DNA of 64,000 bases, from the NCBI RefSeq assembly GCF_000302535.1, contig NC_018708.1, forward strand, positions 4,030,001 to 4,094,000, read 5' to 3'. Below are positions 7,038-54,272 of this stretch, piece after piece. This DNA comes from Acidovorax sp. KKS102. Lineage in GTDB: Bacteria; Pseudomonadota; Gammaproteobacteria; Burkholderiales; Burkholderiaceae_C. Every line of letters begins with the position of its first letter. Position 1 is the stretch's first letter. The notes below the pieces were generated by a model. It did not search any database and had not been told where the DNA came from. It saw only the letters and a program-made list of their open reading frames with translations. The translations under genes were made by a program, and so were the position numbers.

Positions 7038-7083
7038 CATTTTTTGATAGCAGCTAGCGCAATACGCACTAGCGCTTGCGGCC
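7038..7083 (+). repeat. Intergenic palindromic repeat, copy A
   Basis: Contains TTTTTTGATAGC, AGCGC and CACTAGCGC then GGCC, matching the consensus seen in six other intergenic places here (T-rich, GATAGCT, GCGC, about 10 nt, TAGCGCT, GGCC). It lies between the convergent AI-2E permease and PHB-depolymerase genes. Forward orientation relative to the consensus. Confidence 0.7.
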
Positions 7084-7093
7084 ATTTTCTTGC

Positions 7094-8203: not shown

Positions 8204-8525
8204 AGGCAGGAGGGCGTGCGGGCGATGTTCAAAACACAGGGAAAACCCTAGGCACCTTAACAGCTTCTTGCCATCCCTGGCGAATTGCTACGTTTTTTAT
8301 AGCTATCAGGGCATGATTCACTAGCGCTTGAGGCTGCTTTTTCTTCAAACCACCCTCCAGCGGCAACCCAGGCCACCCCACCCGGCAAGCGGCGACAGCC
8401 AGGCCACTTCGCCAGCAAAATGCTGATGGCTGAAATTGATCGAATCCTGTCCTCGGCGGTTCGGACGTCGGCTCGCTGCGCACGGAAGATAAGCGCATCC
8501 CAACCACTGCCTCTGCGAGCCTTCC
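8204..8525. other. Intergenic region between divergent esterase and cysteine hydrolase genes
   Basis: About 320 bp without a convincing gene. It holds one copy of the intergenic repeat (8291-8345) and presumably the promoters of both flanking genes. No strong sigma-70 pair or operator palindrome was found. Confidence 0.5.
8291..8345 (+). repeat. Intergenic palindromic repeat, copy B
   Basis: CGTTTTTTATAGCTATC, then GGGCATGATTCACTAGCGCT and GAGGCTG: the same order of elements as copy A, forward orientation. It lies in the upstream region of the esterase gene rather than at a gene 3' end. Confidence 0.75.
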
Positions 8526-19233: not shown

Positions 19234-20430
19234 ATGACCGCTTTCATTGAGGCAGCTTCGCCCCACGTGATGAACACCTATGGCCGCGTACCAATCGCGC
19301 TGGCCCGTGGACAAGGCAGCCGCGTGTGGGACGTGAACGGCAAGGAATACCTGGACGGGCTGGGCGGCATTGCCGTGAACACGCTGGGCCACAACCACGC
19401 CAAGCTGGTGCCCGCGCTGCAGGACCAGATCACCAAGCTGATCCACACCTCCAACTACTACCACTCGCCCCTGCAGGAGCAGCTGGCCACCAAGCTGGTG
19501 GAGCTGTCGGGCATGCAGAACGTCTTCTTCTGCAACTCGGGCCTGGAGGCCAATGAGGCGGCCCTGAAGATTGCACGCAAGTTCGGCGTGGACAAGGGCA
19601 TCGCCAAGCCCGAGATCGTGGTGTACGAAAAGGCCTTCCACGGCCGCTCGATTGCCACCATGTCGGCCACCGGCAACCCCAAGATCTACAGCGGCTTCGG
19701 CCCGCTGGTCGAGGGCTTCATCCGCGTGCCGCTCAACGACATCGAAGCCATCAAGAAGGCCACCGAAGGCAACCCCAACGTGGTGGCCGTGTTCTTCGAG
19801 ACCATCCAGGGCGAAGGCGGCATCAACCCCATGCGCGTGGAATACCTGCAGCAGTTGCGCAAACTGTGCGATGAGCGCGGCTGGCTGATGATGATCGACG
19901 AAGTGCAGTGCGGCATGGGCCGCACCGGCAAGTGGTTTGCCCACCAGTGGGCCGGCATCGTGCCCGACGTGATGCCGCTGGCCAAAGGCCTGGGCTCGGG
20001 TGTGCCGATTGGCGCGGTGGTGGCGGGCCCCAAAGCCGCCAACGTGCTGCAGCCCGGCAACCACGGCACCACCTTTGGCGGCAACCCGCTGGCCATGCGC
20101 GCCGGGGTCGAAACCATTCGCATCATGGAAGAAGACGGCCTGCTGCAAAATGCCACCACGGTGGGTGAGCACCTCAAGGCGGCACTGCAGCGCGAGCTGG
20201 GCAGCCTGCCCGGTGTGAAGGAGATCCGGGGACAGGGCCTGATGCTGGGCATTGAGCTGAACAAGCCCTGCGGCGCACTGATTGGCCGCGCGGCCGAGGC
20301 AGGCCTGCTGCTGTCGGTCACGGCCGACAGCGTGATCCGCCTGGTGCCCCCGCTGATCCTCACCACCGCCGAAGCCGACGAAATCGTCGCCAAGCTGACC
20401 CCGCTGGTCAAAGCCATCCTGGCTGAATGA
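19234..20430 (+). CDS. argD: Acetylornithine aminotransferase
   Basis: A 398-residue class III PLP-dependent aminotransferase that converts N-acetylglutamate semialdehyde to N-acetylornithine (and can serve DapC in lysine synthesis). Visible: HTSNYYHSPLQEQLATKLVE, FFCNSGLEANEAALKIARKF (PLP phosphate-binding), FHGRSIATMSATGN, and MMIDEVQCGMGRTGKWFA before the Schiff-base Lys in PLAKGLGSGVP. GGAG lies 8 nt before the ATG at 19234. The stop overlaps the ATG of argF by 4 nt, so the two arginine genes are an operon. A weak TAGAAT (19185-19190) could be its -10. Confidence 0.94.
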   Translation: MTAFIEAASPHVMNTYGRVPIALARGQGSRVWDVNGKEYLDGLGGIAVNTLGHNHAKLVPALQDQITKLIHTSNYYHSPLQEQLATKLVELSGMQNVFFCNSGLEANEAALKIARKFGVDKGIAKPEIVVYEKAFHGRSIATMSATGNPKIYSGFGPLVEGFIRVPLNDIEAIKKATEGNPNVVAVFFETIQGEGGINPMRVEYLQQLRKLCDERGWLMMIDEVQCGMGRTGKWFAHQWAGIVPDVMPLAKGLGSGVPIGAVVAGPKAANVLQPGNHGTTFGGNPLAMRAGVETIRIMEEDGLLQNATTVGEHLKAALQRELGSLPGVKEIRGQGLMLGIELNKPCGALIGRAAEAGLLLSVTADSVIRLVPPLILTTAEADEIVAKLTPLVKAILAE

Positions 20431-21377
20431 AGAATAGTCCCACTGCCATGACGACGCTGAAACATTACCTGCAGTTCACCGACCTCACCGCCGACGAGTA
20501 CGCCTACCTGTTCGAGCGCGCCGCGCTCATCAAGAAGAAGTTCAAGGCCTACGAAAAGCACCACCCGCTGGTGGACCGCACGCTGGCCATGATCTTCGAG
20601 AAGGCCAGCACCCGCACGCGCGTGAGCTTTGAGGCGGGCATGTACCAGCTCGGAGGCAGTGTGGTGCACCTGACCACGGGCGACAGCCAGCTGGGCCGCG
20701 CCGAGCCCATCGAGGACAGCGCCAAGGTCATCAGCCGCATGACCGACCTGGTGATGATCCGCACCTACGAGCAAAGCAAGATCGAGCGTTTTGCCGCCAA
20801 CTCGCGCGTGCCCGTGATCAACGGCCTGACCAACGAATACCACCCCTGCCAGATCCTGGCGGACATCTTCACCTACATCGAGCACCGTGGCTCTATCCAG
20901 GGCAAGACGGTGGCCTGGGTGGGCGATGGCAACAACATGGCCAACACCTGGCTGCAGGCGGCGTCGCTGCTGGGCTTCAAGGTGCATGTGAGCACGCCAC
21001 GCGGCTACGAAGTGGACGAAAAATTGGCCGCTGGCGCCCATGGAATCAGCGCGGGCAGCTATCAATTCTTTAGCAACCCCATGGAAGCCTGCCGGGGCGC
21101 CGATCTGGTCACCACCGATGTGTGGACCAGCATGGGCTACGAAGCCGAGAACGAAGCGCGCAAGAAGGCCTTTGCCGACTGGTGCGTGGACACCGAAATG
21201 ATGGCCGCCGCCCAACCCGACGCCCTCTTCATGCACTGCCTGCCCGCACACCGGGGCGAGGAGGTTGAGGCCGACGTGATCGACGGGCCGCAGTCGGTGG
21301 TGTGGGACGAAGCGGAGAATCGGATGCACGTCCAGAAGGCCCTGATGGAATATCTGCTCTTGGGCAAACTGGCCTGA
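20427..21377 (+). CDS. argF: Ornithine carbamoyltransferase, with a repeat-derived segment
   Basis: Makes citrulline from ornithine and carbamoyl phosphate. The carbamoyl phosphate motif is STRTR (EKASTRTRVSFE), the ornithine-side motifs are HPCQILAD and the Cys motif MHCLPAHRGEEVE. The length of 316 is normal for the family. The start at 20427 overlaps the argD stop (ATGA); an ATG at 20448 (MTTLKHYLQF) is an equally good biological start. Residues about 198-217 (EKLAAGAHGISAGSYQFFSN), a variable surface-loop region between well-conserved blocks, are encoded by DNA that aligns with the intergenic repeat of this genome and uses codons rare in its neighbours (TTG, GGA, CAA, TTT). The catalytic motifs are intact, so the enzyme is expected to work. 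Confidence 0.95.
   Translation: MKNSPTAMTTLKHYLQFTDLTADEYAYLFERAALIKKKFKAYEKHHPLVDRTLAMIFEKASTRTRVSFEAGMYQLGGSVVHLTTGDSQLGRAEPIEDSAKVISRMTDLVMIRTYEQSKIERFAANSRVPVINGLTNEYHPCQILADIFTYIEHRGSIQGKTVAWVGDGNNMANTWLQAASLLGFKVHVSTPRGYEVDEKLAAGAHGISAGSYQFFSNPMEACRGADLVTTDVWTSMGYEAENEARKKAFADWCVDTEMMAAAQPDALFMHCLPAHRGEEVEADVIDGPQSVVWDEAENRMHVQKALMEYLLLGKLA
21018..21077 (-). repeat. Degenerate repeat copy in frame inside argF
   Basis: Read on the minus strand this segment gives TTGCTAAAGAATTGATAGCT, then GCGC, GATTCC, GGCGCC, GGCC and TTTTT: the same ordered elements, at the same spacing without gaps, as copies C and E. It codes for argF residues 198-217 in the opposite direction. Similarity is by eye. 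Confidence 0.6.
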
Positions 21378-22074: not shown

Positions 22075-22131
22075 GCCAAAACGGCCTGCAGCGCTAGTGA
22101 ATCATGCGCCATTAGCTATCTAAAAGATAGC
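22075..22131 (-). repeat. Intergenic palindromic repeat, copy C
   Basis: In the reverse orientation: GGCC, GCAGCGCTAGTGAATCATGC, GCC, then AGCTATC and GATAGCA. This is one of the best-preserved copies and lies between convergent genes. The AGCTATC...GATAGC part can form a small hairpin. Confidence 0.75.
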
Positions 22132-24775: not shown

Positions 24776-25195
24776 TCAGTCACATGGCTCCAACCGCTTG
24801 CACTCCGCCGTAACGCGGATGGACGTGAGCGTGTTTTCGCCATCGATGTGCCGGGCAGTGAACTGCACCCAGGCTCCCTGCGAAATGCCGTGCAGCAACG
24901 CGGGGTTGGCCACCCGGAAGGTCTGTGTGGTGAACGGCAGCTTGGCGCGGGGCAGCAGCTTGAGCCGCACAAGCGTGGCGTTGCCGCTCGCATCCAACTC
25001 CACAGACACCAGCCGCGCACGGGTGTAGACCGGAGCCGCAGGGGCGGCACCCTCTACAGCAGCCGAGGCCGCGCCCGCTGGTGCAACGGGCTGGGCGCCT
25101 GCCGCACCACACGCGGCGGCCAAGACCAGTGCGGTGGCAACCCCGCAGCCGCGCTGCTCCCAACGGGCAAGCAACCAAGTGACGGCCTGCCCCAT
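24776..25195 (-). CDS. Exported hypothetical protein, possible CusF-like OB fold
   Basis: A 139-residue protein with a probable signal peptide (MGQAVTWLLARWEQRGCGVA followed by a hydrophobic Ala/Leu-rich core and GAAGAQ cleavage site). The mature part (from about residue 50) has small beta strands: ARLVSVELDASGNATLVRLK, LPFTTQTFRVANPALLHGIS, QGAWVQFTARHIDG and a two-Cys tail (ECKRLEPCD). The order of strands and the run of Thr around the 'TTQTF' resembles periplasmic CusF-type Cu/Ag binding proteins, but the Met/His ligands are not visible, so this is weak. Its ATG overlaps the stop of the S9 peptidase gene (TGATG), so the two form an operon that an IS now interrupts. Confidence 0.65.
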   Translation of the reverse strand: MGQAVTWLLARWEQRGCGVATALVLAAACGAAGAQPVAPAGAASAAVEGAAPAAPVYTRARLVSVELDASGNATLVRLKLLPRAKLPFTTQTFRVANPALLHGISQGAWVQFTARHIDGENTLTSIRVTAECKRLEPCD

Positions 25196-26320
25196 CAGAA
25201 CGCCCACGCGCCCAGCTGGTAGTAGTCAAAACCACTGGTCCGCCCACCCAGGCATTGGGCGAGGAAGTCCTCGGTCTTGCGGTACATGGTGAGGTTGTTG
25301 GGCCAGCGCTGGTTGCCGTGGCCGTCCCCTTTGAAGGTGACGTAGTCCACCTCTTTGCCCGCCTTGCGCAGGGCCGCCACCATCCATTCGGACTGCTCCA
25401 GCTTCACGCGCGGGTCGTTCACGCCGTGCATGATGAGGATGGGCTTTTGCGCATGCTCCGCCCGGTACAGGGGCGACTTCGCGTCCATGCGCGCACGGTC
25501 TTCCGGCACGGCCGGGTTGCCCACATAGCGGTGCCACCAGGGCAGGCCCAGCTCCCAATAGGGCGGAGCAGCTTCCAGCAGGCGTGCGATGTCCGTCACG
25601 CCCACCACATCCACGGCGCAGGCAAAGACTTCGGGCGTGAAGGTGGCGCCCACCAGGGCCGAATAGCCGCCGTAGCTGGCGCCATAGATTGCCACGCGCT
25701 GCGGGTCGGCCACGCCGCGCTCCACCGCCCAGCGCACGCCGTCCACCAGATCGTCGTGCATGCGGCCCGCGAACTCGCCCCGGGCTTTTTCCATGTGGTT
25801 GCGGCCGTAGCCGCTGGAGCCCCGGTAGTTGACCTGCAGCACCGCATAGCCCCGGTTGGCCAGAAATTGCTGCATGGCGCGGTTGGTGAAACCATCACCC
25901 CAGCGGTCGCGCCGCCACGGGCCGCCATGCACCAGCAGCACGGTGGGCAGCCGCTGCGGCGCTGCGCCCACGGGCAGCGTGAGGTAGCCGTGGATGGTGA
26001 GACCATCGCGCGCGGTGTAGGTGATGGGCGCGGTGGGGGCCAGGTCCTTGGCAATCAGGCTCAGGCGGTTCTCGCCCAGGAAGCGGGGCTCGTGCCCATC
26101 GCGCAGCAGGTAGTTGCGCGTGCCCCGGTCGGTGGCCACCGCCACCGTGAGCACCTTGTCGGTCTGGTCCAGGCTGGTCACCAGCACCTCTGCAGGCTTG
26201 TCACCGGCCAGCGCAGACAGCCGGGCATCCAGCGCAGGGTCGAACACCTTGCGCGCCGGGTAGCCGGTGACCCGTCCTGAATAGCGTTGACACCCAGGAC
26301 GGTTAAAAACTCCAGCCGGA

Positions 26321-27196
26321 CTATCCGGCCAATGACGCCCGATGCACTGCATCGGGCGTTTGCATTTTCAGCGACAGATGCGGTCGCTCGCAGTTATAGA
26401 TGTCGACTGACTGCTCGACCATGCGTCTGGCCTGCCCCAGATCGGCGGGGCGCTGCAGCAAGAACTCACTCTTCAAGATGCCATTGACCCGCTCGGCCAG
26501 CGCGTTCTGGTAGCAGTCGTAGCCGTCCGTCATCGAGCAGATCACGCCGTGGCGCTTGTGCAGGGCCTGGTAGTACGTCGCGCAGTACTGGATACCCCTG
26601 TCGGAGTGGTGCACCAACTGTCGGCTGCTCTGTCGCCCCGAGAGCGCCATCTTCATGGCCTGCGCCACCTCTTCGGTCTGCAGGCTCTCATGCACGTGCC
26701 AGCCGACGATCTTCCTGGAATACGCATCCGTGACCAGGCTCAGATAGACGAACTTGCCGTGTGTGGGCAAGTAGGTGATGTCAGCCACCCAGACCTGCTC
26801 GCTGCCGCTGGCGTGGATCTGTTGCGGCCCTACCTTGAGAAGGTTCGGATGGTGCCTGAAGCGGTGGTGACTGTCTGTTGTCTTGTGATACGCCCGCCGG
26901 GGTGCCACCAGCAGCCTGGCATTGCGCAGGACGTCGAACATTGCATCGCGGCCCAAGTCGATGCCTCGGCGCTGTAGCGGCTCCTGCAATAAGTGGTGCA
27001 GCTTGCGCGTGCCTATGCGTGGTTGGCGCATGCGCTGCTCGCGCACCAACTCCACCACCGTCTGCGCATTCGCCAAGCGATCGGCCTCGCGGCGCCTACC
27101 CTGGTAATACGCCTGACGGCTGTGGCCCATATGCTGGCAAGCCCTCTTCACGCTCAACCCTGCGATGAGGTTTTGCGCGAGGACTTGCCCAAAGGC
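26321..27196 (-). CDS. IS3-family transposase OrfB (DDE catalytic part)
   Basis: Integrase-core region of the transposase; the frame is reached from orfA by -1 slippage at 27202-27196, and no independent start is needed. It contains the HTH-like SVKRACQHMGHSRQAYYQGR and GTRKLHHLLQ, then the DDE residues: first Asp in VWVADITYLP, second Asp in HHSDRGIQYC, Glu in NALAERVNGILKSE. The end LSLKMQTPDAVHRASLAG is typical. The catalytic residues are all present, so OrfB itself looks intact. Expression depends on orfA, which has a stop codon. Confidence 0.9.
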   Translation of the reverse strand, partial: AFGQVLAQNLIAGLSVKRACQHMGHSRQAYYQGRRREADRLANAQTVVELVREQRMRQPRIGTRKLHHLLQEPLQRRGIDLGRDAMFDVLRNARLLVAPRRAYHKTTDSHHRFRHHPNLLKVGPQQIHASGSEQVWVADITYLPTHGKFVYLSLVTDAYSRKIVGWHVHESLQTEEVAQAMKMALSGRQSSRQLVHHSDRGIQYCATYYQALHKRHGVICSMTDGYDCYQNALAERVNGILKSEFLLQRPADLGQARRMVEQSVDIYNCERPHLSLKMQTPDAVHRASLAG

Positions 27197-27543
27197 TTTT
27201 TTACGATGCGCACCCCATAGTCCTTGCGCAGCACGTCGATGACGGCTTCGAATAGCCTGGCCTTCTCCTGCGCCTGTGCGAGCTGCACCTGCAGCGCCTT
27301 GATCTGCTGCTCGGGCGTGCGGTCCTTTGGTCTTGTCTAGCGGCATGATGCAGATGATGCCGCAGGACTCCAGCCCAGGCGACCGTGCTTGCGCAGCCAG
27401 ACCAGAACCGTCGAGCGACCCTGGATGCCGTAGTGCTGCTGCGCCTGTTTGTACGTGAGCTCGCCTTTTTCCACCTGCTCCACCACCGCCAACTTAAAGG
27501 CCAGTGTGTAGTCGCGCTGCGTGCGTTTGACACTTGATTCCAT
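27154..27543 (-). pseudogene. IS3 OrfA with internal amber codon
   Basis: OrfA starts MESSVKRTQRDYTLAFKLAV and has the HTH YGIQGRSTVLVWLRKHG of this family. It stops with TAG at 27339-27337 after 68 codons. The same frame continues with TPEQQIKALQVQLAQAQEKA and LRKDYGVRIVKKPLGKSSRK, exactly what a normal OrfA C-terminus looks like, and ends TGA at 27156. A slippery A-AAA-AAG lies at 27202-27196. So the TAG is probably a nonsense mutation (or a tolerated one) and would lower transposase synthesis. Confidence 0.75.
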
Positions 27544-28611
27544 GACACATACCCTTTTTGAAAGGTCCTCGTGTCAACGCCAGGCAGGACGGGTCACGGG
27601 CATGAAATAAGCCAATAAGGGCTCGCGGGTGCGGCGGCTGAGTGTCACGTCGTCCAGGTCCACATCGGGCGAGGCAAACCACTCCTCCTCGCCACCCGTG
27701 GTCAGGTTCAGCCGCACCAGCGCCAGCTTGTCTCGTCCCCGGTTCGACAGGGCCCAGGCCTTGCGCCCCTCGTCGTGCAGGCCAAAGATATTCAGCGTGT
27801 CCCACCGGCTGCGCTCTGCCACCGTCACCCAGGTGCCCTGTGCTGTGCCGGGCCGCTCCAGCAGCACTTGCTCGCCCTGGATCTGTGCCCGGGCGCGCAG
27901 CTGGCCCGTGGTGTCCACGCCCCACCAGTTCACGTTGCCGGGGTTGGTGGCCAGCAGCACCGGCGCGCCACCTGCCGGGTTCACGCGGTACAGGTCAAAC
28001 ACCTTCTTGTCGCGCTGGTTGGAGGTGACGATGAAGTCGGGCGAGGCATCCACCGCCTCCGCAAAATGCGCCACTGAACGCGGTGCAGGCATCAGCTCGC
28101 GCAAGTCGGTACCGGGGCCCTCGACCGCGCCCGCATAGATGCGGGTGTTTTCATCGCCCGTGGGGTCGGCCGTGATGCCGAGCCAGCGGCTGTCGGCACT
28201 GAAGCGAATGGCGCGCGCACGGATGCGAAACGCCTTGGCGTCGCCCCCATCGATGGACTGCACCCAGATCGCAGGCACCACGCCATCGGTGCCAAACCAG
28301 GCAATGCGCTTTCCATCGGGCGACACACGGTAGCCGCCGGTGGACTGGCGGCTGGCGACGAAGTCGCGCACGGGGATCAATTCGGGCAGCTGGGCTCCTG
28401 CCAGTGCGGGATGCGTCGGGCCACTGGCACAGCCCGCCAACAAAACTGCCGACAACACCGCACACCACCCTATCCATCTTGGCGCCATGGAACTCCTCCT
28501 CATCTCGTACAACATGGCGGCATTGTGGAATGCCCAACCTTTGCGCCAGCCAAAGGGCCGGGTCGCCATACCGGCACGCATATCGCTGCGTGCTGCGGGC
28601 GAAGTGCTCCG

Positions 28612-32948: not shown

Positions 32949-33014
32949 AATTTCAAGCATTTTTGGCTGGCAGCGCTAATACAACATGCGCCAAAAGCTA
33001 TCAATAACATAGCA
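32949..33014 (-). repeat. Intergenic palindromic repeat, copy D (inside the kyn operon)
   Basis: Reverse orientation: GGCTGGCAGCGCTAATACAA, then ATGCGCC, AGCTATCAATAACATAGCA. It fills most of the 97 bp between kynB and kynU. Confidence 0.75.
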
Positions 33015-38590: not shown

Positions 38591-38596
38591 GTCCAA

Positions 38597-38648
38597 TCTG
38601 GCGGTAGCGCTAGTGCATCATGCGCCAGCAGCTATCAAAAACAGAGCA
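38597..38648 (-). repeat. Intergenic palindromic repeat, copy E
   Basis: Reverse orientation: CTGGCGGTAGCGCTAGTGCA, TCATGCGCCAGCAGCTATC, AAAAACAGAGCAA. Between the convergent merR and spoVR genes. Confidence 0.75.
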
Positions 38649-45130: not shown

Positions 45131-47644
45131 TCATAGCGCAGGCCGCAGCGCACGCTCCAGCACCTCGGCGGGCATGGGCCGACCAAACAGATAGCCCTGA
45201 AAAGCCTTGCAGCCGTAGCGCTGCAAAAATTCGAGCTGGCCTGTGGTCTCTACGCCCTCGGCCACAACCGCCAGGTCCAGGCTGTCGGCCAAGGCCAGGA
45301 TGGTGCGCACGATGGCGGCGTCGTTGGGGTCGGTCTGCAGGTCGCGCACAAAACCCTGGTCGATCTTGAGCTGGTCAAGCGGCAGCCGCTTGAGGTAACT
45401 CAGGCTGGAATAGCCCGTACCAAAGTCATCCAGCGAGAAGCCCACGCCATAGCGGCGCAGGTGCTCCATGCGCGCAATCACGTCCTCGACATCGGCCATC
45501 AAAAGGCTCTCGGTGAGTTCGAGCTTCAGGCGCTCCGGGTTGGCGCCCGTGGCGTCCAGCACGCCCAGCACCTGCTCCACAAAGTCCGGCTGGCGGAACT
45601 GCCGCACGCTCACGTTCACCGACAGGAAGAACTGCCGGGTGAGTGAGCTGCGCGACCAGGCCACCAGCTGTGCGCACGCCGCTTCCAGCACCCATTGGCC
45701 CAGAGGCAGGATGAGCCCAGTCTGCTCGGCCAGCGGAATGAATTCGGCGGGGGACACCATGCCCCTGCGCGGGTGACGCCAGCGCACCAGGGCCTCGGCA
45801 CCCTGCAAGCGGCCTTTGCCATCCACCACCGGCTGGTAGTACAGCACCAGTTCCTTTTCTTGCAGGCCCCGGCGCAGGTCGGCCTCCAGGGCCGAACGGT
45901 TGCTCACGGCCGCTTGCATGTCGGGGTCGAAGAAGCGCTGGGTGTTGCGTCCCGCCGCCTTGGCCTGGTACATGGCCAGATCCGCATGTTTGAGCAACTC
46001 GTCCACGCTCACGGTCTGCTGGCCGAACAGCGCAATGCCGATGCTGGGTGTGCTGTGGTGACTGGCATCGCCCAGCGCGTAAGGTTTGCCCAGCGTGGTG
46101 GTGATGTGGCTGGCCACCAGCGCGGCCTCGGCGCTGGCATGGGCGGGGTCGGCGCTGAGGCCCTCCACCAGCACCACGAACTCGTCACCCCCAAAGCGGG
46201 CCACGGTGTCGGACTCCCGCACGCAACCCTTGAGCCGCTGCGCCACCTGCAGCAGCAGCTGGTCGCCAGTGTCGTGGCCCAGGGTGTCGTTGAGGTCCTT
46301 GAAATTGTCGAGGTCGATGAACAGCAGGGCACCCTGGGTGCCAGAGCGTGCCACCGCCGCCGTGGCATGTTGCAGCCGGTCCACCAGCAGGCGGCGGTTG
46401 GGCAGGCCCGTCAGCGAGTCATAGAACGCCAGACGTTCGATCTGGCTTTCGACCTGCTTGCGCTCCGTGATGTCGCGGCCCACCCCCCGGTAGCCACGCA
46501 GGGCGCCATTGGCATCGAACACGGGGACCCCGCTGACCGAGATCCAGTGCATGCTGCCATCCGCGCGCCGGCGTTGCAGCTCCAGGTCGCGGAACGGCTG
46601 GTGTGCTGCCAGCACGGCGCGGTGCGCAGCCCAGTCGGCATCGGTCATGTTCAGGGCGCCGATCTCCCAGCGTGTGCGCCCCATCACGTCCGACAGCGGG
46701 ATGCCGTTCACGCTCAGGTCCCCGGCCAGCTGCACAAAGCGCCCCTCGGCGTCGTGCTCCCAATACCAGTCGGACGACAGATCGCTCAGGGACCGGAAGC
46801 GCGCCTCGCTCTCGCGCAGCTCGTTCTCCACACGCACGTAGTCGCTCACGTCGGCAAAGGTGCGCACCAGGCTGCCATCGGCCAGCGAGGTGGTGCGCAC
46901 CTCGAACGTGCGGCCATCGCGCGTGGTGCGCCAGTACAAGGCCGGGGCCGGAGCCACTGCGCCCTGGGCCACGTAGTCGTGCCCTCGCCGGTCCACCAGG
47001 CTGTAGCCCTCGCCAAAGTCGCCGCGCTCGGCCTGCACACGCGTCAGGTCGGCCAGCGTGGGGCGGGTGGCCATCAGTGATTCGGGCAAATTCAGCAGCT
47101 CCAGCACGCGCTCGTTGTAGACGGTGATGCGGCCATCGGGCCCGGTCTTGAAGATGCCCTGGCTCATGCTGGCCAGCGTGGCCTGCAGGGCCGAGCGCTG
47201 TTCCTGCAGCATGGTCAACGCCTCTTGCCAGATGCGGGCGTCCACCATGCGCACGGGCTGGCCCTGCCCCTGCGCGCCCTGCACCAGCGCCACCAGGCGG
47301 TTGAGCAGCTCGCTCAGGTGTGCAGCGCCGTCGGCCTCGCGCAGCACATAGTCGCCCAGCCCGCAGCGGAACGCGCGCGCGGCCAGGGCCTCTTGCGCTG
47401 CATCGATGCACATCAGCACCGGGCGGCCCGCGCACAGCTCCAGCAGGCCGGGCAGTTCCTGGTCGCTGGGTTTGAGGCACAACACCACGGCGTCCCAGGC
47501 CTGGCTGGCGAGGGGGGCCTTGGCGGTTTCGGGCGTAGGGCTGTTGACCACTCGCCAGTCCGGGTAGCGCGCCGCGATCAGTCGCCGCGCAGCCGCTGCG
47601 TGCTGGGTATCGATGTCCACCCACAGGATGCCCACGCCGTTCAT
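45131..47644 (-). CDS. PAS-GGDEF-EAL protein with degenerate receiver-like N-terminus
   Basis: An 837-residue cyclic di-GMP enzyme. Residues 1-125 resemble a receiver domain but the Asp position is hydrophobic/Cys (AVVLCLKPSD), so phosphorylation is unlikely. PAS regions at about 155-270 and 285-395. GGDEF motif RFGGDEF at 485-489, with an I-site RESD at 476-479. The EAL part has EALVRW at 616-621, TESLLM, DDFGTGYSS, IDQGFV and EGVETTG, so all phosphodiesterase residues are present. It overlaps the next upstream gene by 4 nt (ATGA). It may be bifunctional, with the net activity controlled by PAS signals. Confidence 0.92.
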   Translation of the reverse strand: MNGVGILWVDIDTQHAAAARRLIAARYPDWRVVNSPTPETAKAPLASQAWDAVVLCLKPSDQELPGLLELCAGRPVLMCIDAAQEALAARAFRCGLGDYVLREADGAAHLSELLNRLVALVQGAQGQGQPVRMVDARIWQEALTMLQEQRSALQATLASMSQGIFKTGPDGRITVYNERVLELLNLPESLMATRPTLADLTRVQAERGDFGEGYSLVDRRGHDYVAQGAVAPAPALYWRTTRDGRTFEVRTTSLADGSLVRTFADVSDYVRVENELRESEARFRSLSDLSSDWYWEHDAEGRFVQLAGDLSVNGIPLSDVMGRTRWEIGALNMTDADWAAHRAVLAAHQPFRDLELQRRRADGSMHWISVSGVPVFDANGALRGYRGVGRDITERKQVESQIERLAFYDSLTGLPNRRLLVDRLQHATAAVARSGTQGALLFIDLDNFKDLNDTLGHDTGDQLLLQVAQRLKGCVRESDTVARFGGDEFVVLVEGLSADPAHASAEAALVASHITTTLGKPYALGDASHHSTPSIGIALFGQQTVSVDELLKHADLAMYQAKAAGRNTQRFFDPDMQAAVSNRSALEADLRRGLQEKELVLYYQPVVDGKGRLQGAEALVRWRHPRRGMVSPAEFIPLAEQTGLILPLGQWVLEAACAQLVAWSRSSLTRQFFLSVNVSVRQFRQPDFVEQVLGVLDATGANPERLKLELTESLLMADVEDVIARMEHLRRYGVGFSLDDFGTGYSSLSYLKRLPLDQLKIDQGFVRDLQTDPNDAAIVRTILALADSLDLAVVAEGVETTGQLEFLQRYGCKAFQGYLFGRPMPAEVLERALRPAL

Positions 47645-50600
47645 GGCCGTTGCTCCTGCCGTGCGGGCAGCGTGGTGGCCAGCGAGGGTGCCGAGTGGCC
47701 TGGTAAATACTCACGCTCAAACAGCTCGACCGGCCCGGGCCTTCCAAACAGATACCCCTGGAACCCCTCGCACCCATGCAGCCTCAGGAACGACAACTGC
47801 CCCGTCGTCTCCACCCCCTCGGCCACCACCTCCAGGTCCAGGCTCTTGGCCAGCGCCAGGATGGTCCGAACTATCGCCGCGTCGTTCGGGTCCGTCAGCA
47901 CGTCCCGCACGAAGCTCTGGTCGATCTTCACCTGGTCCAGCGGCAGGCGCTTGAGGTAGCTCAGGCTAGAGTAGCCGGTGCCGAAGTCGTCCAGCGCAAA
48001 GCCCACGCCTTCGCTTTTGAGTTGCACCATGCGTGCGATGGTGTCTTCGATGTCTCCCAGCAGCAGGCTTTCGGTGAGTTCGAGTTTGAGCTGCCGGGGG
48101 TCGGCGTTGTGGTTCTTCAAGGTTTGCAGCACTTCGGCCACGAAGCCCGGTTGCCGAAATTGGCGGGCGCTGACGTTCACGGAGATGGACAGGTGGGCGG
48201 TGTCCGGGTGTTGGCTCCAGCGCTGCAGTTGTTCGCAGGCGGTCTGGAGCACGTATTGGCCCAGGGGGAGGATGAGGCCGGTCTGTTCTGCCAGGGGGAT
48301 GAAGTCGGCCGGGCTGATCATGCCGCGCTGGGGGTGGCGCCAGCGCACGAGGGCTTCTGCGCCCAGCAGGCGGGCGTGGTGGTCGACCACAGGCTGGTAG
48401 TGCACGAGCAGCTCGCCCCGGGCCAGGCCCTGGCGCAGGTCGGCTTCGAGGTTGGAGCGGGCGTTCACCGCTGCCTGCATGTCGGGGTCGAAGAATCTCT
48501 GGGTGTTGCGGCCTGCGGCTTTGGCCTGGTACATGGCCAGGTCGGCGCGCTTCAAGAGTTCGTCCACGGTGAGGCGTTCGTCGCCAAAGAGGGTGATGCC
48601 GATGCTGGGGGTGCTGTAGTGCTGGGCGCCGTCCAGGTTGAAGGGCTGGTTCAGGCTGGCCAGGAGTTTTTCTGCGACGGTTTCTGCCTGGGTGGCGGCG
48701 TTTTGCAGGTCGGGGGCCAGGGCTTCGAGCATGACGACGAATTCGTCGCCGCCAAAGCGGGCGACGGTGTCGGCTTCGCGCACGCTGCCCACCAGGCGGG
48801 CGGCGACCTGGGCCAGGAGCTGGTCGCCCATGTCGTGGCCCAGGGTGTCGTTCAAGTCCTTGAAGTTGTCGAGGTCGATGAACAGCAGGGCGCCGAGATT
48901 GCGGGTGCGCTGGCAGGCAGCGATGGAGCGTTGCAGGCGGTCCAGGAGCAGGCGGCGGTTGGGCAGGCCCGTGAGGGCGTCGTAGAAGGCCAGGCGTTCG
49001 ATTTCTTGCTCGGCACGTTTGCGATCGGTGATGTCGCGGCACACGCCCAGGATGCCCGTCACGCGGCCGTGCAAGTCACGGATGGGTGTCTTGATGGTCT
49101 CGAACTGGCCCTGGTAGCCGTCTTCCGCGAAGGTGAGCGTCTCCTCGTACACCAACGGTTGCCAGGCCTGCATGGCGCGCTGGTCGTACTTGCGAAAGCG
49201 CTCGGCGTCGGCGGGCGCCACCAGGTCAAAGTCGCTGCAGCCCACGACCTGGCTCTCCGGCCGGCCGGCAAAACGCTCAAACACCGGGTTGACCGACAGG
49301 TACACCCCGTTGGTGTCCTTCATGAACACCATGTCCGGCATGGCGTTGACCACGCTGGCCAGGTGCGCCTTCTGCTGGGCCAGTTCCTGTTCGATGCGCT
49401 TGAGCGCCGTCAAGTCGTAGGCAAACAGCACCACGGCTGCCACCCCTTGCGCCGTCACGCTCTCGGGGGCGATGGTGGTGTGGCGGAACTGGGTGCCGTC
49501 GGGGCCATCAATGCGGTTCTCAAACACCGCCGTCTCGCCCGCAAAGGCCTTTTCAAGGTGCGGGTGGATGCGCGCGAACACTTCGGGAGGGATCACATCC
49601 CGCAGCAGCTGTCCTTCCAGCGCCTGGGGCGTGGTGTAGAGCCAGCGGGCCTGCTGCTCATTGACGTACAGCACGCGCAAGTCCCGGTCGATCCGAGACA
49701 CACCGCCCGGCACATGGCGCAGCGTGTTGGCCATGAGCGCCTGCTGGGCGTGCGCGGCCTCTTCAGCCTGATGGTGGGCGGTGATGTCGGTCTGCACGCC
49801 ATCCCACAGCACCCGGCCATCCTGCAACCGGCGCGGCGACGAACTCAGGTGCATCCAGCGCACCTGGCCGTCGGTGCGGCGCACCCGAAACACCGCCTCC
49901 AGGCTGGTCATGGACAGGTAGGACTGGCGCTCCGCCTGGCGCAGGCGGTCGATGTCTTCAGGAAGGATCTGCCGGTACAGCACGCGCGGGTCCTGCAGCA
50001 CGTCTTCGACCCGCACACCGTTCAGCCGCTCGATGGCGTCTCCCATGTGCACAAAATGCACCCGGCCATCCAGCTCGCGCACGATCTGGAACAACACGCT
50101 GTGCGGCAGGTTGCGCCCGAGCAGTGACAGACGCCCCTCGCTCTCGCGCAAACGGCTTTCGGCCTCCTGGATGCGTGCAAACGGGCGACGAATGCCTGCG
50201 TCAAACACCGCCTGGTACAACAGCGCATACGCCACCACCCGAAAGCCATGGGACAAGACCCCACCCAGCGTCGAATGCCCGCCCAGCGAGCCCACGGTGA
50301 CCTCACCACACACGAACGCTCCGGCCGCCCAGGCAAACAGGCGCTCGCGCGGCGCCTCTTCGCTGTGGCTGCGGCGGTACAGCAACACCGCACTGGCGGC
50401 CAGTGCCAGGGCCAGCCCCACAGCCACCACCTGGCGCAAGGCCCCGTCTGCAGCATGGGCAAACCAGTGGGGCAGCGGTCCCAGCGCCGCCCCCGCAAGT
50501 ACCAGCGTGACGCCCCCCGCTGCCGCCAGCCACGCACGGGCCGGGCCGGGGGCCGACAGGCGCGTGGCGGTGAGCCCCAGGGTCAGCGCCTCGGCCACAC

Positions 50601-54228: not shown

Positions 54229-54272
54229 ATGCTACATGAACATGCCCTGATAGCTATTAAATTCATAGCAAT
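54229..54272 (-). repeat. Intergenic palindromic repeat, copy F (degenerate)
   Basis: Reverse orientation: GCTACATGAACATGCCCTGATAGCTATTAAATTCATAGCAATT in three parts; the TAGCGC half has decayed. It lies between acnA and a small membrane protein gene. Confidence 0.55.

Follow-up and report, generated by a model that had tools for sequence, protein, structure and literature searches.

Protein-coding palindromic repeats are reportedly present in Wolbachia. In-frame repeats in conserved genes are best known from Rickettsia, where Rickettsia palindromic elements (RPEs) occur in frame within conserved, unrelated protein genes and also between genes (PMC10969869, PMC2229807). RPEs are inserts by the description in PMC2229807, with a length of 105-146 bp and terminal inverted repeats. 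BRE, the Beta-proteobacterial repeat element, is dispersed in Bordetella and Comamonadaceae, and some of its copies lie entirely within coding sequences; it has about 90 bp, a GC content of 69% in Bordetella and no more than 29 copies per genome at that paper's cut-off (Hot et al. 2011, PMC3110155). Intragenic copies of ERIC are mentioned in PMC10969869. Five genera of the Acidovorax group were looked for in passages of a paper about REP families (PMC3733652), and none is named there. BRE and RPEs were found in the open-access literature searched, the accessible text of which gave no account of the repeat or of the argF case described below. The outcome here is the same as in Rickettsia, in the Acidovorax group, with genomes of 5 Mb, and in central enzymes. 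We consider it highly probable that a dispersed repeat, by now old, came to occupy tolerant loops of enzymes; in argF it is a later gain, and one that mostly replaced residues.

The window, i.e. the whole stretch of 64,000 nucleotides that was analysed, comes from a genome of 5.2 Mb (positions 4030001-4094000) and includes argF (Table 1). This gene was matched in 145 of 150 genomes of the family, its product contains both OTC Pfam domains (PF00185 and PF02729), and its conserved start is probably at position 20448. Among the loci returned, the nearest argF is that of Acidovorax delafieldii DSM 64, with 98% identity. The nearest solved relative is 4f2g_A (E 1.7e-152), presumably a Burkholderia thailandensis protein, in which the loop considered here is 3 residues shorter.

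Table 1. Position of argF, its repeat-like segment and copies of the repeat in the window.
Feature	Coordinates	Strand	Evidence and remarks
argF, ornithine carbamoyltransferase	20427..21377	+	ORF; 316 aa counted from first ATG; Pfam OTCace, OTCace_N
20-codon segment of argF, residues 198-217, EKLAAGAHGISAGSYQFFSN	21018..21077	+	protein alignment, 110 rows and 29 order-wide rows
Repeat core inside argF	21023..21074	-	nhmmer, model positions 1-52, gapless; 29.6 bits, E 3.2e-8 in window
Repeat copy outside argF	7041..7087	+	nhmmer, 42.4 bits
Repeat copy outside argF	8287..8337	+	nhmmer, 43.8 bits
Repeat copy just past the frame following argF (frame end 22065)	22079..22131	-	nhmmer, 44.1 bits; ORF
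Repeat copy outside argF	32964..33013	-	nhmmer, 38.4 bits
Repeat copy outside argF	38595..38647	-	nhmmer, 48.4 bits
Partial repeat copy, model positions 1-39	54231..54269	-	nhmmer, 26.3 bits, E 3.4e-7

Two other features of the window were observed. At 26263-27601, a transposase-like frame (26321-27346, minus strand), which we take to be of IS3 type, is flanked by 31-nt inverted ends that are 87% complementary. It sits between two minus-strand frames, 27574-28581 and 25195-26352, that are seemingly parts of one gene, presumably S9 peptidase-like. The stretches 45151-46495 and 47712-49056, at a distance of 2,561 bp, match each other in four pieces with 74-78% identity and are probably tandem paralogues.

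A preliminary description of this DNA had aligned the codons of argF residues 198-217, on the minus strand and without gaps, with an intergenic repeat, and had named a series of blocks (TGCTA, GCGC, GATTC, GCGC, GGCC and a T-run). The blocks are present in that order: read on the minus strand, the segment contains TTGCTA, AATTGATAGCTGC, GCGC, GATTCC, GCGC, GCGGCC and ATTTTT. When positions 20800-21300 were compared by BLAST with the own genome, 7 places besides argF were matched, all within query positions 214-277, with 76-85% identity and E values from 1e-4 to 6e-4. An nhmmer profile was then seeded with four copies from the window and extended over 864 kb of the own genome with argF masked; after four rounds, 117 matches gave a model of 52 positions. 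This model, the check that had been proposed beforehand, scores the segment strongly (E 3.2e-8), and the alignment stood, covering 52 of 52 positions at 29.6 bits and passing its controls. The top score in the reversed 864 kb was 10.6 bits. The argF copy has the consensus base at 38 of 52 positions, and that of one orthologue (L014) at 43 of 52. At the level of sequence comparison, the DNA of residues 198-217 proved homologous to a short dispersed repeat.

The codons and residues of a loose loop might also come to resemble a repeat by chance or convergence, an explanation to which we give next to no credence. The argF loop is variable and AT-rich, and a few recodings fall short of the real matrix score by no more than 5 units; in the window argF the real score is 43.9 with an ungapped matrix, and synonymous recoding gave a mean of -7.1 (sd 12.5) and a best value of 39.4, i.e. 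near the real one. However, with genome codon usage and the same kind of matrix, not one among 20,000 recodings equalled the real score in any of the 6 orthologues so treated, and both the reversed control (best 10.6 bits) and the end-to-end gapless match speak against chance. Because recodings never reach the real score, the peptide alone is insufficient for repeat likeness; it permits the likeness, yet the choice of codons is needed for it. The codons of the segment had also been described as unlike those of the flanks. Among 290 windows of 20 codons examined, the lowest codon adaptation in argF is that of the repeat-like segment, and its GC3 is 0.60 vs 0.90 in the rest of the gene. A comparison of pN/pS (0.26 in the segment, over 12 rows, vs 0.25 in the rest) is not relied on, as the rest was read at fixed offsets and rows are possibly misaligned.

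For comparison among orthologues, 110 rows of argF were aligned, comprising 30 loci (L009-L038) from the 145 genomes with argF among the 150 drawn, together with the top 80 of 594 or more loci in the genome collection; four pairs among the 110 are identical in sequence. The aligned stretch falls into two length classes, with 32 residues in 40 rows (long) and 28-30, nearly always 29, in the other 70 (short). The segment has 20 codons in place of the 17 of most short-form orthologues. The alignment suggests that the loop is variable, and this part of the earlier reading appears sound. The repeat signal follows length: among the 40 long rows, 21 reach 12 bits or more (12-42), 10 score 0.6-9.3 and 9 have no match, vs 1.0-1.5 bits in 3 short rows on the minus strand and no match in the remaining 67 (maximum 1.5). 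All of these scores come from a single profile built from the own genome, and low ones in other lineages may be underestimates. Five orthologue rows outscore the window argF, the top one (L014) at 42.0 bits. Under the ungapped matrix, none of the 70 short rows scores above -17, vs 36-58 in six long rows that were tested. Composition behaves similarly. GC3 is lower in the segment than in the rest of the gene in all 21 high-scoring long rows (mean 0.49 vs 0.84), in 13 of the 19 low-scoring long rows (0.74 vs 0.87) and in 37 of the 70 short rows (0.85 and 0.85).

In an order-wide sample, argF was found in 57 of 60 genomes. Besides the own row, 29 rows (28 from other families and one from the same family) were compared; all 29 are short and none has a minus-strand match. 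Because the order-wide rows are all short and unmatched, the short form of the loop is most likely ancestral and the repeat-derived loop is a later gain. The preliminary description had proposed as tests that orthologues without repeat similarity should not have the same peptide and that a copy-specific gain relative to outgroups would support its reading. Rows without similarity do have another, shorter peptide, mostly within the family and always among the outgroups, but 19 of the 40 long rows score below 12 bits and 9 give no match. There is a gain relative to the outgroups; it is not confined to the window, since 21 of the 110 rows score at least 12 bits. A common origin of such long rows with the others would rest on their equal length and on residues such as EKLA. 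One genome (G018) has a long loop with no repeat signal, and the genome itself is without a repeat match at the strict setting; this loop fits a scar that has outlived the repeat.

The number of gains was considered on a tree of 106 argF rows from which the variable stretch had been left out; its bootstrap had not settled and it is poorly resolved, so that the following counts are to be read with this in mind. The short label takes 6 changes, 1 of them forced by well supported branches, and the high-scoring long label takes 10, with 4 forced. The AU test does not reject a tree that unites the 38 distinct long rows in a single clade (p-AU 0.331). These results allow one old gain followed by fading and a few losses or exchanges, or alternatively several gains. 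In one genome (G003, locus L019), argF is of the short form and groups among long rows, which might reflect a loss, an exchange or a separate history. The repeat is matched at 34 of the 42 places scored in that genome, despite its short argF.

The repeat has a core of 52 nt, with conserved signal over about 65-70 nt, and a core GC content of 48% vs 66% in the flanks. At E values up to 0.01, 157 separate copies were found in 1.264 Mb (24%) of the own genome. Across the family, 35 of 120 genomes have a match to model R1 at the strict setting, in which no more than 42 places were scored in any one genome. One copy is near-palindromic, matching the model on both strands with 31.8 and 25.1 bits (L333:10143-10190; genome positions 4000143-4000190). 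The copies look old: of the 25 own ones whose flanks could be placed in A. delafieldii DSM 64 (91% identical over 189 kb), 23 occur there too. In full, the 166 own matches divide into 23 shared, 1 absent, 1 far and 141 without a flank in the compared part; in the reverse direction, 52 matches divide into 24 shared, 1 absent and 27 without a flank. A second genome (G085), with 84% identity, gave 17 shared, 4 absent and 34 unplaced for 55 own matches, and 17 shared, 3 absent and 30 unplaced for 50 matches in the reverse direction. The 7 absences between these two genomes were seen as gap sizes only, one of them being 37 nt shorter without the repeat. Recent insertion was considered for the 2 aligned absences relative to A. 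delafieldii and rejected, as they are neither clean excisions nor pure additions with target duplication. Neither pairwise comparison revealed a clean empty site or a recent insertion.

Alternatively, selection might have placed the repeat inside genes as well as between them because it functions as a site at the DNA or RNA level, be it regulatory, terminator-like or chromosome-organising. This seems improbable to us. Among 9 stretches that were folded, 3 have z values from -3.75 to -4.66, as might be expected of such a site, and that of the argF stretch is -1.79. An imperfect hairpin of 11 pairs, which replaced an earlier, hand-drawn model of two hairpins, has 74.4% of its cells paired vs 21.5-44.0% in slid controls, but its covariation score is reached by 29 of 500 shuffles and is thus weak at most; RNAalifold returned 2 pairs only. 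The 21 shared non-coding copies are 86% identical vs 81% in the adjoining 30 nt, which would favour a site under selection, but identity further out, coding DNA included, is 89%. Given these three values, there seems to be little sign of selection on the repeat DNA itself. In several lineages, moreover, the length of the argF loop has been kept without repeat signal, and this too argues against a functional site. Rfam at the gathering score found no family in the window, and in eight loci it gave one sub-threshold match, outside the repeat.

The repeat occurs in genes other than argF as well. Of the 157 copies in the 1.26 Mb, 16, argF included, lie in coding-like frames whose codon use is normal to either side of the copy. 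The repeat consensus is stop-free in three frames. Copies in these frames, that of argF among them, account for 13 of the 16, and the other three lie in frames in which the consensus has stops that must have been lost. For xdhA, aceE, dadA and aacS, relatives were sought in 40 genomes of the family each and matched in 31, 39, 35 and 23, respectively; the remaining coding cases were judged by codon scores, a few of them also by a Pfam name for the protein, and some may be wrong. The repeat peptide of xdhA (residues 193-211) lies between two Pfam matches, Fer2_2 (109-178) and FAD_binding_5 (212-377). That of aceE (731-747) lies between PDH_E1_M, which extends to 717, and a C-terminal match from 747, with an overlap of one residue. 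In a FAD-linked oxidase (L130), the peptide starts at about residue 774, after FAD-oxidase_C (to 774) and before an iron-sulphur match from 832. Weaker repeat signal is present in aceE of four other genomes (G003, G010, G004 and G035; 12.2-22.2 bits) and in xdhA of three (G010, G023 and G039; 21.1-23.2 bits). Repeat matches at L158:16000-16050, L142:5855-5903, L147:2030-2080, L147:19655-19701 and L138:3686-3735 lie within frames resembling phosphoethanolamine transferase, hydantoinase B, prmB, ligA and, presumably, a membrane urate oxidase-like protein. The hydantoinase B gene and argF read the repeat in the same frame.

Loop lengths were measured between fixed anchors, which were present in 28 of 30 aceE loci, 15 of 30 dadA loci and 21 of 27 aacS loci (four aacS genes being counted twice). 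At 34 residues, the own dadA loop is 4 longer than the median (30, range 30-36) of 11 rows without signal, and the own aacS loop, also of 34, is 3 shorter than the median (37) of 11 such rows. For aceE the difference is 8 (22 vs 14 in 23 rows without signal), a soft value, as 17 of the 23 rows, with no more than 52-54% identity, are probably paralogues; the loops of the six closer rows without signal have 17, 22, 22, 14, 13 and 13 residues. Two close aceE rows (L224 and L226) have no signal, yet their loops are as long as those of repeat-bearing rows, and aacS rows without signal, e.g. that of G020, have residues like ATARNDAE in common with the own peptide. Both observations may reflect decay of the repeat or a prior likeness.

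The change in argF is not a clean insertion, judging by the alignment, as a net 3 residues were gained for 20 repeat-like codons. Under the preferred reading, a repeat copy would have entered a tolerant argF loop in an ancestor within the family, in the antisense direction, and would have displaced, directly or after trimming, about 17 native codons. Having no stop in this frame, the repeat would have left it open. Thereafter the loop would have held its length as the codon use of its DNA gradually became normal, leaving some lineages with the longer loop and no repeat signal. Other enzyme genes would have been entered by the same repeat at linkers and variable loops. The argF peptide itself is most likely a spacer kept for its length, and no new catalytic part.

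How the native codons were lost can be envisaged in two ways. A mobile copy might have been inserted plainly, adding about 20 codons to argF, with adjoining native codons being deleted later to leave the net gain of 3. PMC2229807 treats known in-frame repeats within genes as insertions, and a filter acting on insertions would be expected to yield the 13 of 16 coding copies found in open frames. The aligned stretch, however, has 28-32 residues in all 110 argF rows, with no much longer intermediate, and the net change is small in dadA and aacS too, less clearly in aceE. We give insertion and trimming a chance approaching even. Gene conversion or template switching from a donor copy elsewhere, guided by microhomology (GCCGG on one side and AGCTA on the other), would replace the loop in one step and account directly for a net change of 3 codons; GCC GGC and AGC TAC are present near the ends of the segment in many short-form orthologues. 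Against this, no donor can be named for argF, and the microhomology is short, was noticed post hoc and may be due to chance. We give one-step replacement a slightly lower chance than insertion and trimming. A still wider reading, which we offer tentatively and with more doubt than belief, is that tolerant loops and linkers of housekeeping enzymes have been overwritten, rather than interrupted, throughout the genome, so that unrelated proteins share repeat-coded peptides; extrapolated from 16 cases in 24% of the genome, this would concern some 60 genes per genome. Under the preferred reading, the steps in argF can be placed in order, from a short ancestor through a repeat-like loop to a loop whose repeat signal has faded, and they offer a tractable series for how non-coding DNA turns into protein.

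The REP/RAYT system has a dedicated Y1 transposase adjoining its repeats. As to this feature, one Y1_Tnp gene is present in the own genome, at 960310. It lies in L188 (960310-960597) and is the sole Y1 transposase-like gene that was found. Like ERIC and REP, the argF repeat is short and has many copies, many of them intergenic; it may differ from them in that no Rfam family reaches the gathering score in the window. Like BRE, it is dispersed and has copies inside coding sequences, but its shorter length, its core of 48% GC and its 157 copies in 1.26 Mb set it apart from the description of BRE. The likeness to RPEs lies in its position, in frame in conserved genes (argF, xdhA, aceE, dadA and aacS, with 16 of 157 copies in coding-like frames). 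RPEs, however, belong to Rickettsia and this repeat to Burkholderiales; they are 105-146 bp long, vs a core of 52 nt with conserved signal over about 65-70 nt; and they are inserts that add a block of peptide, whereas the argF repeat mostly replaces native residues, with a net gain of 3. Their terminal inverted repeats and long stem-loop may or may not have a counterpart in the imperfect hairpin of 11 pairs, in which covariation is weak at most. The observation made in the preliminary description is confirmed and its interpretation, a non-coding repeat exapted into a protein in the manner of RPEs, is supported as regards a repeat-derived loop with the same outcome, but not as regards family or net addition. 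As the length and the net addition of RPEs are not found here, the argF repeat is not filed among them, and the likeness is one of outcome and not of family.
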